A stretch of 64,000 bases of DNA from Burkholderiales bacterium (lineage in GTDB: Bacteria; Pseudomonadota; Gammaproteobacteria; Burkholderiales; Thiobacteraceae): assembly GCA_023511995.1 (NCBI GenBank), contig JAIMAL010000013.1:1-64000 (forward strand), read 5' to 3'. Below the pieces are notes generated by a model. The model was not told where the DNA came from, ran no database searches, and saw nothing but the letters and a program-made list of their open reading frames with translations. How positions within the stretch are numbered: the stretch's first letter is position 1; every line of letters starts with the position of its first letter. Position numbers and translations under genes: made by a program. This document shows positions 36,581 to 41,100 of this stretch, piece by piece.

Positions 36581-37144
36581 ATGGGGTTTAACCATCTGCC
36601 CAACCTGCTCACCACCCTGCGCGTGCTGGCCGCGCCGGTGTTGGCCTGGGCGCTGCTTACCGGCAACTTTGCCCTGGCCTTCTGGATTTTCCTCGCCGCT
36701 GCGCTCACCGATGCGCTGGACGGCTGGATCGCCCGCCGCTTCCAGCTCACGACGCCCTACGGTGCGGTGATGGATCCGCTGGCCGACAAGCTGGTCACCC
36801 TGGTGTGCGTGATCCTCCTCACCTGGCTCAGCATGGTGCCCTTGTGGCTGACGCTCGCCCTGGTGGTGCGGGATACCATCATCGTCGGCGGCGCCTTCGC
36901 CTATCACCGCGTCTTCGGTGAAGTGCAGATTCGGCCCACGCGGCTGGGCAAGGCGCACACCCTGCTCGCTTTTGCCCTCTTCGCCGGTGTGCTGGCCGAT
37001 GCCGCGGGTTATCTGGAGCTCGATGCAGTGCGGGAGCCTTTCTTTCTCCTCGTGTTGATCCTGACCGTGGCGAGCGGCACCCAGTATGTGCTGCTGTGGG
37101 GCCGCCGCGCGGCGGCGGAGGCGTCACGGCGACAGCCGCGCTAA
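36581..37144 (+). CDS. CDP-alcohol phosphatidyltransferase family protein
   Basis: 187 aa integral membrane enzyme with the complete CDP-OH-P signature DGWIARRFQLTTPYGAVMD followed by PLAD, i.e. DG(x2)AR(x8)G(x3)D(x3)D, at residues about 46-71. Four to five membrane helices. It is PgsA-like, but the exact alcohol (glycerol phosphate or another) cannot be told from sequence. Its 3' end overlaps the 3' end of the convergent GGDEF/EAL gene by 21 bases. Confidence 0.88.
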   Translation: MGFNHLPNLLTTLRVLAAPVLAWALLTGNFALAFWIFLAAALTDALDGWIARRFQLTTPYGAVMDPLADKLVTLVCVILLTWLSMVPLWLTLALVVRDTIIVGGAFAYHRVFGEVQIRPTRLGKAHTLLAFALFAGVLADAAGYLELDAVREPFFLLVLILTVASGTQYVLLWGRRAAAEASRRQPR

Positions 37145-39952
37145 CCAGTCGTCGAGGGGTTCGGGGCGGTGGAAATGATAGCCCTGGAAGCGCTCACAAC
37201 CCTGGCGCCTGAGGAAATCGTACTGGGCGGTGTTCTCCACCCCTTCCGCCACCACTTCCAGGCCCAGATGGGTGGCCATGGCGAGAATGGTTTCCACCAG
37301 CGCCACGTCGTTGAGGTCGTGGGGCACATCCTGGACGAAACTCTTGTCGATCTTGAGCTCCGCCAGGGGCAGCCGCTTCAGATAGGCAAGGGATGAATAG
37401 CCGATGCCGAAGTCATCGATGGAAAAGCGCACGCCCAGATTCGAAAGCTCCGTCATGTGGGCGAGCACCTCGGCGGTGTGTTCCAGCAAGAGGCTCTCCG
37501 TGATCTCCAGCACCAGATAGCCGGGATCGGCCCCGGTAGCGGTGAGGATTTCCCGCACCCGGCGCACCAGATCGGGCTGGCGAAACTGGCGGGGACTCAT
37601 GTTCACCGCGATGCGCAGGCCGCGGCCCTCGCCATCGAGGCGGGCGATGAGGCGGCAGGCCTGGGTGAGGACCCACTCGCCAATGGGCACGATGAGCCCG
37701 CTTTCCTCCGCCACGGGGATGAAGGTGGCGGGTGGCACCAGGCCCCGTTCCGGATGGGGCCAGCGCAGCAGCACCTCGGCGCCGGTCAGGCGACCCGCTG
37801 CATCCAGCTGGGATTGCAGGTAGACGGCGAAGGCCTGGGTGCGCACCGCTTCGCGCAGCGCCTGCTCCAGGGCGTAGCGCTGGCTGACTGCCTCCTGCAG
37901 CGCCGGCTCGAAATACGCCACCGCATTGCGCCCCGCCTCCTTGGCGCGATACATGGCGATGTCCGCCTCCCGCATGAGATCGTCGATGTTCTCGTGATCC
38001 TTGGGGAAGAGGGTGATGCCGATACTGGCGCCGGAGATGAAATCCATTTCTCCCACCCGCACCGGCTGGGTGAGGGACAGTCGGATTTTTTCCGCGAGTG
38101 CCAGGGCGAGCGTGGCGGCATCCTGCAGGGAGGGGGCGAGGTCCGGGACGAGCACGACGAACTCGTCACCCCCCAGCCGCGCCACGGTATCGGTTTGGCG
38201 CAGGTGAAGGCTGATGCGCTGCGCCACCTCCTTAAGCAGGCTGTCGCCGATCTCGTGCCCATAGACGTCGTTGATGCGCTTGAAATGGTCGAGATCGACG
38301 AACATCAAGGCGCCGCGACGGCGGTTGCGGGAAGCGGCGGCGACGGCCTGCGCGAGCCGGTCGCGCAAAAGCGTCCGGTTGGGCAGCCCGGTAAGGGGAT
38401 CGTGAAAGGCCAGGCGCTCGATCTCGGCCTCGGCGCGCTTGCTATCGGTGATGTCCAGGCAATGGCCCACATAGCCGAGAAAGCCGCCTTCGCTGTCATA
38501 GCGCGGGCTGCCCTGATCGACGATCCAGCGGTATTCGCCGCTGTGGTGGCGCAGGCGGTATTCCATGCGGAAGGGCTGGCGGGCGTCGAAGGCGCGCTCG
38601 TAAATTTCCACCACCCGCGGCAGGTCTTCCGGGTGTACGCTGGCGGTCCAGCCCATGCCCAGTTCGTCTTCCAGGCGGCGGCCGGTGAATTCCAGCCACA
38701 CCCGGTTGAAGTAGTCGCAGAGCTTGTCGGGACCCGAGGTCCAGATGAGCGCCTGGCCGGCATCGGCGAGGGTGCGGAAATGCCGTTCGCTGTCCGCCAG
38801 CCGGCGCCGCAACCGGTATTCCTCCGTCACGTCGCGGAAGACCAGCACCACGCCTTCCACTTCGCCGGACACGCCGCGGATGGGCGCGGCCGAATCGGCG
38901 ATATGACGCCGGTTCCCGTCCCGCGCCACGAGCACGGTGTGATTGGCCAGGCCCACCACGATGCCCTCGGCGAGCACCCGATCCACCGGGCTTTCCTGGG
39001 GTTGGCCGGTGAGGGCGTTTTCGATGACGAAGACTTCGCCAAGCTGCCGCCCCCGGGCTTCGGCCAGGGGCCAGCCGGTGAGGGCTTCCGCCACCGGGTT
39101 CATCAGGGTGACGCGCTGGGCGGCATCGGTGGCGATGAGGGCATCGCCGATGGACTGGAGGGTGATGGCAAGCCGTGTCTCGCTCTCCGCCAGCCGCGCC
39201 TGGGCTTGCGCCACCGCCTCTGCCATGTGGTTGAAGGCCTGCGCCAGGCGTTGGATCTCCTCCGGTCCTTCCGGCTGCGATCGTGCCTCGAGCTCCCCGT
39301 GGCCGAAGCGTTCCGCGACACCGGCGAGCCGGTTCAAGGGGCGGCTTACCTGATGAACCAGATAAAAAGCAAGCCCGCCGATGAGGAGAACCAGCCCCAC
39401 GAGGTCCGGCAGCCGCGCGGCGAACGCCGCCCGCAGGGCCGCCGCCCGCTGCCGGCTCACATCGAACCGCACATACACCACGCCCCGGCGGGAGCTGCGC
39501 ACCTCGGTGGGCGCGGCGGGAAAATCGAAGGGATGGAAGACCTCCAGCCGGTTGCCGTCGATATGCTCGATGAGCAGGGGCAGCCGGCGCTCGCCCGCCG
39601 CGCGTGCACGCTCCAGGGGGAAGCCGGGCATCACCTCCGCCACGGGTCTGTCCCGCCAGGCGTAACGATGGGCGCTTATCACCCTGTTGGCTTCGTCGAG
39701 GATGAGCACCGCCGCCACCCGGGGGTCGGTCGCCACATGGGCGAGATCCGCCTCCACCAGGCTGCGGGCGGAGGCAAACCCGTATTCGGCCATGCGGGCG
39801 AGATGAGCGGCAGCGGCCAGGGCGTCCTGGCGGGCCGAGGTCTTGATGTCCGCCTGCTCGTCGTTGAGGGCGGTGAAAAAGGAAATCCCGCCGATCAGAA
39901 GCAAAAGCAGGGTGAGCCCCAGGGGCAGCAGCAGCCGCAGCGGCGCGCGCAT
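37124..39952 (-). CDS. Membrane-bound GGDEF/EAL cyclic-di-GMP signalling protein with HAMP and two PAS domains
   Basis: 942 aa. TM helix (about residues 8-28), periplasmic sensor region, second TM (about 185-205), HAMP, two PAS domains (about 270-390 and 400-515), GGDEF (about 520-680) and EAL (about 690-940). GGDEF is intact and preceded by an RQTD inhibitory-site motif, so cyclase activity with product inhibition is expected. The EAL motif itself reads EVL, but the other catalytic residues (NMSPRQF, LEITES, DDFG, KIDKSF, EGVE, FQGYHF) are present, so phosphodiesterase activity is possible. Its start shares one base (TGATG) with the stop of the upstream solute-binding lipoprotein, indicating a receptor pair. 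Confidence 0.93.
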   Translation of the reverse strand: MRAPLRLLLPLGLTLLLLLIGGISFFTALNDEQADIKTSARQDALAAAAHLARMAEYGFASARSLVEADLAHVATDPRVAAVLILDEANRVISAHRYAWRDRPVAEVMPGFPLERARAAGERRLPLLIEHIDGNRLEVFHPFDFPAAPTEVRSSRRGVVYVRFDVSRQRAAALRAAFAARLPDLVGLVLLIGGLAFYLVHQVSRPLNRLAGVAERFGHGELEARSQPEGPEEIQRLAQAFNHMAEAVAQAQARLAESETRLAITLQSIGDALIATDAAQRVTLMNPVAEALTGWPLAEARGRQLGEVFVIENALTGQPQESPVDRVLAEGIVVGLANHTVLVARDGNRRHIADSAAPIRGVSGEVEGVVLVFRDVTEEYRLRRRLADSERHFRTLADAGQALIWTSGPDKLCDYFNRVWLEFTGRRLEDELGMGWTASVHPEDLPRVVEIYERAFDARQPFRMEYRLRHHSGEYRWIVDQGSPRYDSEGGFLGYVGHCLDITDSKRAEAEIERLAFHDPLTGLPNRTLLRDRLAQAVAAASRNRRRGALMFVDLDHFKRINDVYGHEIGDSLLKEVAQRISLHLRQTDTVARLGGDEFVVLVPDLAPSLQDAATLALALAEKIRLSLTQPVRVGEMDFISGASIGITLFPKDHENIDDLMREADIAMYRAKEAGRNAVAYFEPALQEAVSQRYALEQALREAVRTQAFAVYLQSQLDAAGRLTGAEVLLRWPHPERGLVPPATFIPVAEESGLIVPIGEWVLTQACRLIARLDGEGRGLRIAVNMSPRQFRQPDLVRRVREILTATGADPGYLVLEITESLLLEHTAEVLAHMTELSNLGVRFSIDDFGIGYSSLAYLKRLPLAELKIDKSFVQDVPHDLNDVALVETILAMATHLGLEVVAEGVENTAQYDFLRRQGCERFQGYHFHRPEPLDDWLARLSP

Positions 39953-40908
39953 CAAGCGGCCTCCGGCAGGAAGCGGGCATCGGCCAGGCCCGCGAGGGTC
40001 ACGGGCCGCCGCAACAGGCCGTTTTGCAGCATGAGGGTCTGCACCTGGGTGGCCGCGGCCGTAAGCCGCTGGCCGCCTTCGTCCAGCCACGCCCGATTGG
40101 CGCGCCGATCCATCATGCGCACGCCGGCGTAGGCGCGCGCCACCGCCTCGGGGGGAATGCCCAGCCGCGGCGCCATGCGACGGGCGGCATCCGCCGGTTT
40201 CTGCAGGAAGTGATCCAGGGCGGCAAAGTAAGCCGCGGTGAGCTGACGGAAGGATTCCGCTGCTGCCGCCAGGGCGGAAGCATGGGCCACCAGCACGTCC
40301 ACGATGAGACCGGGAAAGGCACCGCTATCGATGATGCGGCGCGCGCCGAGGGCTTCGAGTTGGGTGGCGTAGGGTTCCCAGGTCACCAGCGCATCCACCT
40401 CGCCGGCCTGATAGGCGGCGAGGTGGCGGTCGCCGGTGACGGGCACCTTGACCACCTCCTTCGGAGCAAGGCCGGCGATTTCCAGGCTTTTGCTCAACAT
40501 GAGCGCCCCGGCCGCCGTCTCCTCCACCCCGATGCGCTGTCCGGCAAGATCGCGCGGCGTGCGCAGGGGCGGGCGCGCCATCACCACGTCCGCCCCGGCC
40601 GAATCGTCGAAGACTAGGATGACCCGCACATCGAGGCCGCCCTCCCGCGCCAGCAGACACTCGTCCAGGGTGAGGCAGGCCGCTTCCACCTCTTTGCTGG
40701 CGAGTGCCATGAGGCTCGCCGTGTTGGAAGGCATTTCCACCAGACGCACCGCCGACTCATCCAGCAAGCCCAGTTCGCGGGCGAGGAACAGGGGCTCGTA
40801 GCCCACCCAGACGATGCCCGCCACGCGCACCAGCGGCCGCGCCGGCTGACAGCCGGCCCAAAGGGGCAGGGTGAGGAGCGAGGCGAGGACATCGCGACGG
40901 GTGGGCAT
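39952..40908 (-). CDS. Lipoprotein solute-binding protein of ABC-transporter type (NMT1/SsuA-like)
   Basis: 318 aa. The N-terminus MPTRRDVLASLLTLPLWAGC combines a twin-arginine-like TRRDVLA with a lipobox (LWAGC), so it is probably a membrane-anchored periplasmic lipoprotein. The fold resembles the nitrate/sulfonate/thiamine-precursor binding family (GYEPLFLARELGLL, VDALVTWEPYATQLEALGA). No permease or ATPase gene is adjacent; the partner is the GGDEF/EAL gene, whose start overlaps its stop by one base. It likely presents an unknown small molecule to that sensor rather than to a transporter. Upstream Met codons exist; 40908 starts the signal peptide. Confidence 0.85.
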   Translation of the reverse strand: MPTRRDVLASLLTLPLWAGCQPARPLVRVAGIVWVGYEPLFLARELGLLDESAVRLVEMPSNTASLMALASKEVEAACLTLDECLLAREGGLDVRVILVFDDSAGADVVMARPPLRTPRDLAGQRIGVEETAAGALMLSKSLEIAGLAPKEVVKVPVTGDRHLAAYQAGEVDALVTWEPYATQLEALGARRIIDSGAFPGLIVDVLVAHASALAAAAESFRQLTAAYFAALDHFLQKPADAARRMAPRLGIPPEAVARAYAGVRMMDRRANRAWLDEGGQRLTAAATQVQTLMLQNGLLRRPVTLAGLADARFLPEAA

Positions 40909-41055: not shown

Positions 41056-41084
41056 AAAAAAGCCGGCTTCAAGCCGGCTTTTTT
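41056..41084 (-). terminator. Bidirectional terminator after cytochrome c gene
   Basis: AAAAAAGCCGGCTT (41056-41069) and its complement AAGCCGGCTTTTTT (41071-41084) form a long inverted repeat with A/T flanks on both sides. It lies 17 bases past the cytochrome c stop and separates that gene from the solute-binding-protein operon. Confidence 0.85.
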
Positions 41085-41100
41085 GGGAGGTCGCGGTGCC

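Follow-up and report, generated by a model that had tools for sequence, protein, structure and literature searches.

Binding Proteins as Partners of Transmembrane Receptors

Receptors driven by binding proteins are thought to be widespread, and few have been characterised. In LuxP-LuxQ, TorT-TorS and ChvE-VirA, the ligand-loaded solute-binding protein (SBP) stimulates a transmembrane kinase. The same has been described for BctC-BctE, a kinase system of this design (PMC9602780). In other cases, an SBP or an SBP-like domain is tied to the control of c-di-GMP, as with ArtI and STM1987 in Salmonella and with RmcA in Pseudomonas (PMC8846402), and according to a review of 2022, SBP_bac_3 is the only member of the PBP clan studied in c-di-GMP networks (PMC8846402). 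The closest layout is that of NspS-MbaA in Vibrio cholerae and Sinorhizobium meliloti, where the SBP gene overlaps the receptor gene by 16 bp and 3 bp and NspS is the sensor, whose ligand state sets the cyclase versus phosphodiesterase activity of MbaA (PMC9993111, PMC8967002).

Here, we describe a gene pair of similar layout in the window, a 64-kb stretch of DNA that belongs to a 2.5-Mb genome with 25 GGDEF matches. Both genes together most probably encode one two-subunit signal receptor, the SBP no longer serving an ABC importer; we put the probability of this reading at a little under 0.8.

The Gene Pair and Its Surroundings

The pair and its junction comprise the following features.

39952..40908, minus strand: NMT1-family solute-binding lipoprotein (SBP, the proposed sensor subunit), 318 aa (ORF, Pfam, AF2 model)
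37124..39952, minus strand: membrane receptor, 942 aa, TM-Cache-like-TM-HAMP-PAS-PAS-GGDEF-EAL (ORF, Pfam)
39950..39954, minus strand: TGATG, one-base stop/start overlap (translational coupling; sequence)
41056..41085, no strand assigned: palindrome AAAAAAGCCGGC-TTCAA-GCCGGCTTTTTT, likely bidirectional terminator between the pair and the upstream cytochrome c gene (sequence)

Across the join, the minus strand reads TTGATGCG, and base 39952 is common to the TGA stop of the SBP gene (39954-39952) and the ATG of the receptor gene (39952-39950). A sequence-only reading of the window had described a lipoprotein gene sharing one base (TGATG) with the gene of a membrane PAS-PAS-GGDEF-EAL partner, and its coordinates proved exact to the base. 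The palindrome is near-perfect, with 12-bp arms, and was not listed by a pattern scan. On its other side, the pair meets the 3' end of the phosphatidyltransferase gene (36581-37144), which is convergent with it. Bounded in this way by a likely terminator and the end of a convergent gene, the SBP and receptor genes probably form a two-gene transcription unit. A sigma-70 promoter scan found no promoter, and an Rfam scan of the window returned only a tRNA and no Guanidine riboswitch.

Judged by their sequences, the neighbours on one flank are PurH, PurD, HemF and the CDP-alcohol phosphatidyltransferase, and those on the other flank are cytochrome c, a methyltransferase, a TlpA-like protein and IlvD. 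There is no ABC permease or ATPase gene among them, as the earlier reading had stated for the genes adjoining the pair. Elsewhere, the genome does encode SsuB/SsuC-type components. It also holds two further arrangements of a binding protein with a GGDEF protein: a PhnD-like periplasmic binding protein followed by a PAS-GGDEF-EAL protein (G000:C5, about 51.2-54.6 kb; L006, L115), and a HAMP-GGDEF protein followed by a PhnD-like binding protein (G000:C8, about 42.9-45.7 kb; L007, L114). The number of SBP-GGDEF pairs in this genome is at least three.

The Binding Protein

The SBP begins with MPTRRDVLASLLTLPLWAGC, which combines a twin-arginine motif with a lipobox-like Cys20.

40849..40908, minus strand: twin-arginine signal peptide and lipobox, RR at residues 4-5, Cys20 (sequence, Cys conservation)

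The protein matches Pfam NMT1 (PF09084) at 4e-15 and 56.7 bits, above the gathering score of 20.5, as well as Pfam NMT1_2 and SsuA/TauA-type families of NCBIfam, and it stays below the curated cut-off of SsuA_fam TIGR01728 (NCBIfam; 100.8 vs 163.5 bits). Pfam gave NMT1 and NMT1_2 only, and an assignment to the PotD/PotF polyamine-binding family was not obtained. The AF2 model (pLDDT 92.7) has the type II PBP fold with a TauA/SsuA match, and its closest PDB fold is TauA with 2-aminoethylphosphonate (TM 0.82). Among the signalling relatives, 107 of 115 have the lipoprotein cysteine, whereas none of the transporter-linked relatives does (0/28); a lipid anchor kept across the group is in keeping with a protein that remains next to its receptor.

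The Receptor

The domains of the receptor are as follows.

39407..39871, minus strand: periplasmic single Cache/PAS-like domain between two TM helices, about residues 28-182 (AF2, Foldseek)
39212..39361, minus strand: HAMP, residues 198-247 (Pfam PF00672, 2.4e-12)
38465..39160, minus strand: two PAS domains, residues 265-380 and 414-496 (Pfam PAS_4, 5e-24; PAS_3, 1.7e-19)
37925..38410, minus strand: GGDEF domain, with GGDEF motif and RQTD (RxxD) I-site (Pfam, 6.5e-50)
37163..37864, minus strand: EAL domain, EVL motif, with the N, E, D, K and Q signature residues present (Pfam, 1.1e-69)

The receptor N-terminus was modelled with a pLDDT of 94.9, and Foldseek matched its periplasmic domain to the extracytoplasmic domains of WalK, PctD, DcuS and DctB. 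We propose this Cache-like domain as the docking site of the SBP. Inspected by eye, the signature residues of both GGDEF and EAL are intact, and the two domains are predicted to be an active diguanylate cyclase and an active phosphodiesterase, respectively.

Relatives of the Pair in Other Genomes

Relatives of the SBP were searched in 1,179 genomes (order, class and phylum samples), their loci were taken with flanks, and the neighbours were labelled by profiles built from GGDEF, EAL, kinase, SsuB, SsuC and sensor-domain sequences. The loci come from the top of the score list and from an intermediate zone. The sequence-only reading had suggested a survey of how often such binding proteins neighbour GGDEF/EAL genes without transporters. 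Among the 93 loci with at least 300 bits, the gene directly downstream encodes a GGDEF/EAL protein in 39 and a histidine kinase in 44 (83/93 together), and in none is it ssuB, ssuC or another ABC gene; since the loci were chosen by score, these counts describe the chosen loci and are no census. Another six have a transmembrane sensor with no recognised output, some of them cut by contig ends. Four carried no labelled partner (L059, L074, L146 and L151), of which L059 proved to encode a PhnD-PAS transducer and L151 a broken remnant. Hence, 90 of the 93 close relatives have a transducer or transmembrane sensor as partner, and three (L074, L146, L151) have no intact transducer. An invariable presence of permease and ATPase genes in orthologous pairs, the finding named beforehand as contrary to a signalling role, was looked for and not encountered. 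In contrast, the 54 more distant loci, at 150-210 bits, comprise 27 with ABC genes, 8 with transducers and 19 with other neighbours (Fisher p about 1e-20).

Matches of at least 240 bits were listed for about 39 of the 369 class-sample genomes and 41 of the 399 phylum-sample genomes, so that relatives of the pair occur in roughly 10% of the sampled Pseudomonadota species. The adjacency and coupling are seen in the sister species (G009), in three Thiobacillus MAGs and in G373, and the adjacency extends across dozens of genera; such recurrence makes it more than chance. Of 90 relatives, 61 have a partner gene whose best start overlaps the stop of the SBP gene by 1-4 bases. A named, annotated case is that of Niveispirillum, where the SBP gene, labelled 'ABC transporter substrate-binding protein', is followed after a gap of 9 nt by an EAL-domain gene. 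Most members presumably carry just this label, which is likely to be functionally wrong for them.

Two variants of the arrangement were observed. In L059 (6919-8562) and L212 (5955-7319), the transducer that comes after the NMT1 lipoprotein has a PhnD-type binding domain, fused to PAS, as its own sensor, and two types of binding protein may thus meet in one receptor. In L137, L139, L160 and L161, a separate EAL-domain gene follows the SBP-kinase pair, which may give a phosphorelay access to a phosphodiesterase and hence to the same output.

These neighbourhoods bear on whether the SBP could be an orphan subunit of an importer encoded elsewhere, with the GGDEF/EAL protein sharing its transcript merely so as to coordinate c-di-GMP with uptake. 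The SsuB/SsuC-type components of the genome, and the wider SBP relatives that serve importers, would suit such an arrangement, whereas no close relative adjoins transporter genes, transducers of two unrelated output types recur as partners, and the SBP is lipid-anchored while its transporter-linked relatives are not. We regard an orphan importer subunit as very unlikely. The recruitment of a transporter-type protein as a sensor, which the sequence-only reading had seen in this pair, is supported by the survey; its view of a dedicated ligand-to-c-di-GMP switch was too narrow, as histidine kinases are the partners in about half of the family.

Evolution and Exchange of the Output

The signalling SBPs stand apart from the transporter-linked ones. 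On a tree of 169 SBP rows, the signalling/ABC label changes once and the GGDEF/kinase label 20 times, and on a second tree of 120 rows, built under a mixture model, the changes are one and 22; most of these output-swap counts depend on modestly supported branches, and the starred branches alone force 12 (GGDEF) and 16 (HK) changes on the first tree and 8 on the second. The root being uncertain, the single change may have led from transport to signalling or the other way round. The swap nearest to the window is L056, whose SBP is 63% and whose sensor domain is 41% identical, and whose output is a histidine kinase.

This single split also speaks to a dual system, in which the SBP would serve both a remote importer and the receptor, as is thought for ArtI (arginine, Salmonella). 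The idea has precedent in SBPs that serve a transporter and a receptor alike (PMC9602780, PMC8846402); with one signalling/ABC change on the tree, no ABC neighbours and a lipid anchor in nearly all members, we hold it to be quite improbable for this group.

For a two-subunit receptor, the co-evolution of SBP and sensor domain is of interest. Their distances are correlated (Mantel) with r = 0.45 for GGDEF partners and 0.56 for HK partners, with r = 0.42 and 0.50, respectively, when the output domain is controlled for, and with r = 0.43 among pairs that differ in output (p = 0.0005 throughout). Joint inheritance of the operon accounts for part of these correlations: among GGDEF partners, the SBP follows the output domain (0.47) no less closely than the sensor domain (0.45). 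The covariation of SBP and sensor domain across outputs further argues against an orphan importer subunit. In 23 genomes, the best full-length matches of the sensor-domain profile adjoin SBP genes, a specificity that is partly circular because the profile was built from SBP partners. Taken together, the close relatives of the binding protein, which lie beside receptors with an often-swapped output, point to one widespread sensor module.

The Binding Pocket and the Candidate Ligand

In TauA, the sulfonate is contacted by the side chain of Gln30 and the main chain of Gly61, Gly79 and Thr132, and the amine by Glu106, Thr132 and Asp205 (PMC6906117). In the alignment, Glu106 corresponds to D107 here (90/90 signalling members) and Asp205 to D204 (88/90), and Gln30 is not conserved: it aligns with W34, and tryptophan stands there in 89 of 90 signalling members. 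After the position of Gly79 come D82 (90/90) and E83 (89/90). With the amine-binding acids kept and the sulfonate-contacting glutamine replaced by tryptophan, a small cation is likelier than a sulfonate, and the ligand of the signalling group is probably a small cation or amine. Sulfonate or taurine is disfavoured by the same replacement in the SBP and nearly all its signalling relatives. A nitrate, sulfonate or thiamine-precursor ligand, after which the earlier reading named the binding-protein family, is not indicated.

The conservation of this pocket is also relevant to another alternative, that the SBP is a fixed accessory lipoprotein, an envelope or surface-stress monitor that senses no small molecule and keeps its pocket as a relic. 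The Cache-like domains of WalK, which are controlled by partner proteins, rank high among the fold matches of the sensor domain and lend this idea some basis. A relic, however, would not keep the pocket-mapped residues W34, D82, E83, D107 and D204, nearly invariant in 88-90 of 90 diverse signalling members, and we judge it highly improbable.

The residues W34, D101, S103, D107 and D204 are common to the SBP and its nearest transporter-linked relatives. In 5 of 12 scanned loci of these relatives (L083, L090, L103, L168, L182), a Guanidine-I riboswitch stands at the start of an SsuA-type ABC operon, which suggests that these operons encode guanidine importers; one named relative lies in a urea-carboxylase operon of Cupriavidus. 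Guanidine import by ABC transporters under such riboswitches is established (PMC12186494). For the signalling side, the Rfam scan found no Guanidine riboswitch in 12 loci, and with the window also lacking a match, control of the pair by such a riboswitch was rejected. The ligand need not be guanidine, given the differences at positions 37-38, 82-83, 135 and 178. That the whole signalling group senses a single conserved small cation, for which guanidine or a guanidino/amine compound might be considered, with the output exchanged many times, is a speculative and rather unlikely extension. If true, many Pseudomonadota would own a dedicated periplasmic receptor for that cation, with c-di-GMP or a phosphorelay as output. 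Otherwise, the known sensing of guanidine is intracellular, by riboswitches.

Proposed Mechanism

In the two-subunit receptor that we favour, the SBP would be a lipid-anchored periplasmic Venus-flytrap protein with no role in an ABC importer. It would close on its ligand and then bind or release the periplasmic Cache-like domain of the receptor, and the signal would pass through TM2 and HAMP to the PAS domains. As a result, the receptor would tilt towards making c-di-GMP (GGDEF) or towards degrading it (EAL). By analogy with NspS-MbaA, the SBP may toggle the receptor between cyclase and phosphodiesterase states (PMC8967002). The gene pairing, the anchoring, the covariation and the output swaps come from the computational analysis, whereas contact between the subunits, the class of ligand and the sign of the response are inferred.

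The group is a large set in which a transporter-type protein is apparently a full-time sensor, with its pocket kept and its outputs exchangeable. The ligand of one member should predict those of many others, which makes ligand discovery efficient, and the group offers a natural series on how a Cache-like domain reads a binding protein.

Comparison With Known Systems

The layout resembles that of NspS-MbaA in that the SBP gene lies directly upstream of, and overlaps, a GGDEF/EAL receptor gene, and the receptor shares the TM-periplasmic-TM-HAMP-GGDEF-EAL order of MbaA, with two extra PAS domains here. Unlike NspS, which is PotD-type (spermidine), the SBP is an NMT1/SsuA/TauA-type lipoprotein; the periplasmic part of the receptor is a single Cache-like fold of about 155 aa as compared with about 233 aa in MbaA (S. 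meliloti), and the SBP group also drives histidine kinases. LuxP, TorT, ChvE and BctC belong to other SBP families, BctC is still part of a transporter, and the output of the receptor in the window is GGDEF-EAL. ArtI, the arginine-binding protein of a transporter, is not a dedicated partner gene, and in RmcA, the SBP_bac_3 domain is fused to the protein, while the SBP here is a separate partner gene. TauA/SsuA and the SBPs of guanidine importers have the same fold, and the nearest transporter relatives share W34, D107 and D204; however, they have no lipoprotein cysteine and sit in permease/ATPase operons, several of them behind Guanidine-I riboswitches.

The sequence-only reading had called the pair the best candidate in the window for an uncharacterised signalling system. 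A literature search found no description of the NMT1-transducer group, which is weak evidence given its partial coverage, and with NspS-MbaA showing the same layout, the system is not categorically new. Its kind is known; the novelty lies in the family and the lipid anchor of the SBP, in the single Cache-like domain proposed for docking and in an output that has been exchanged repeatedly.
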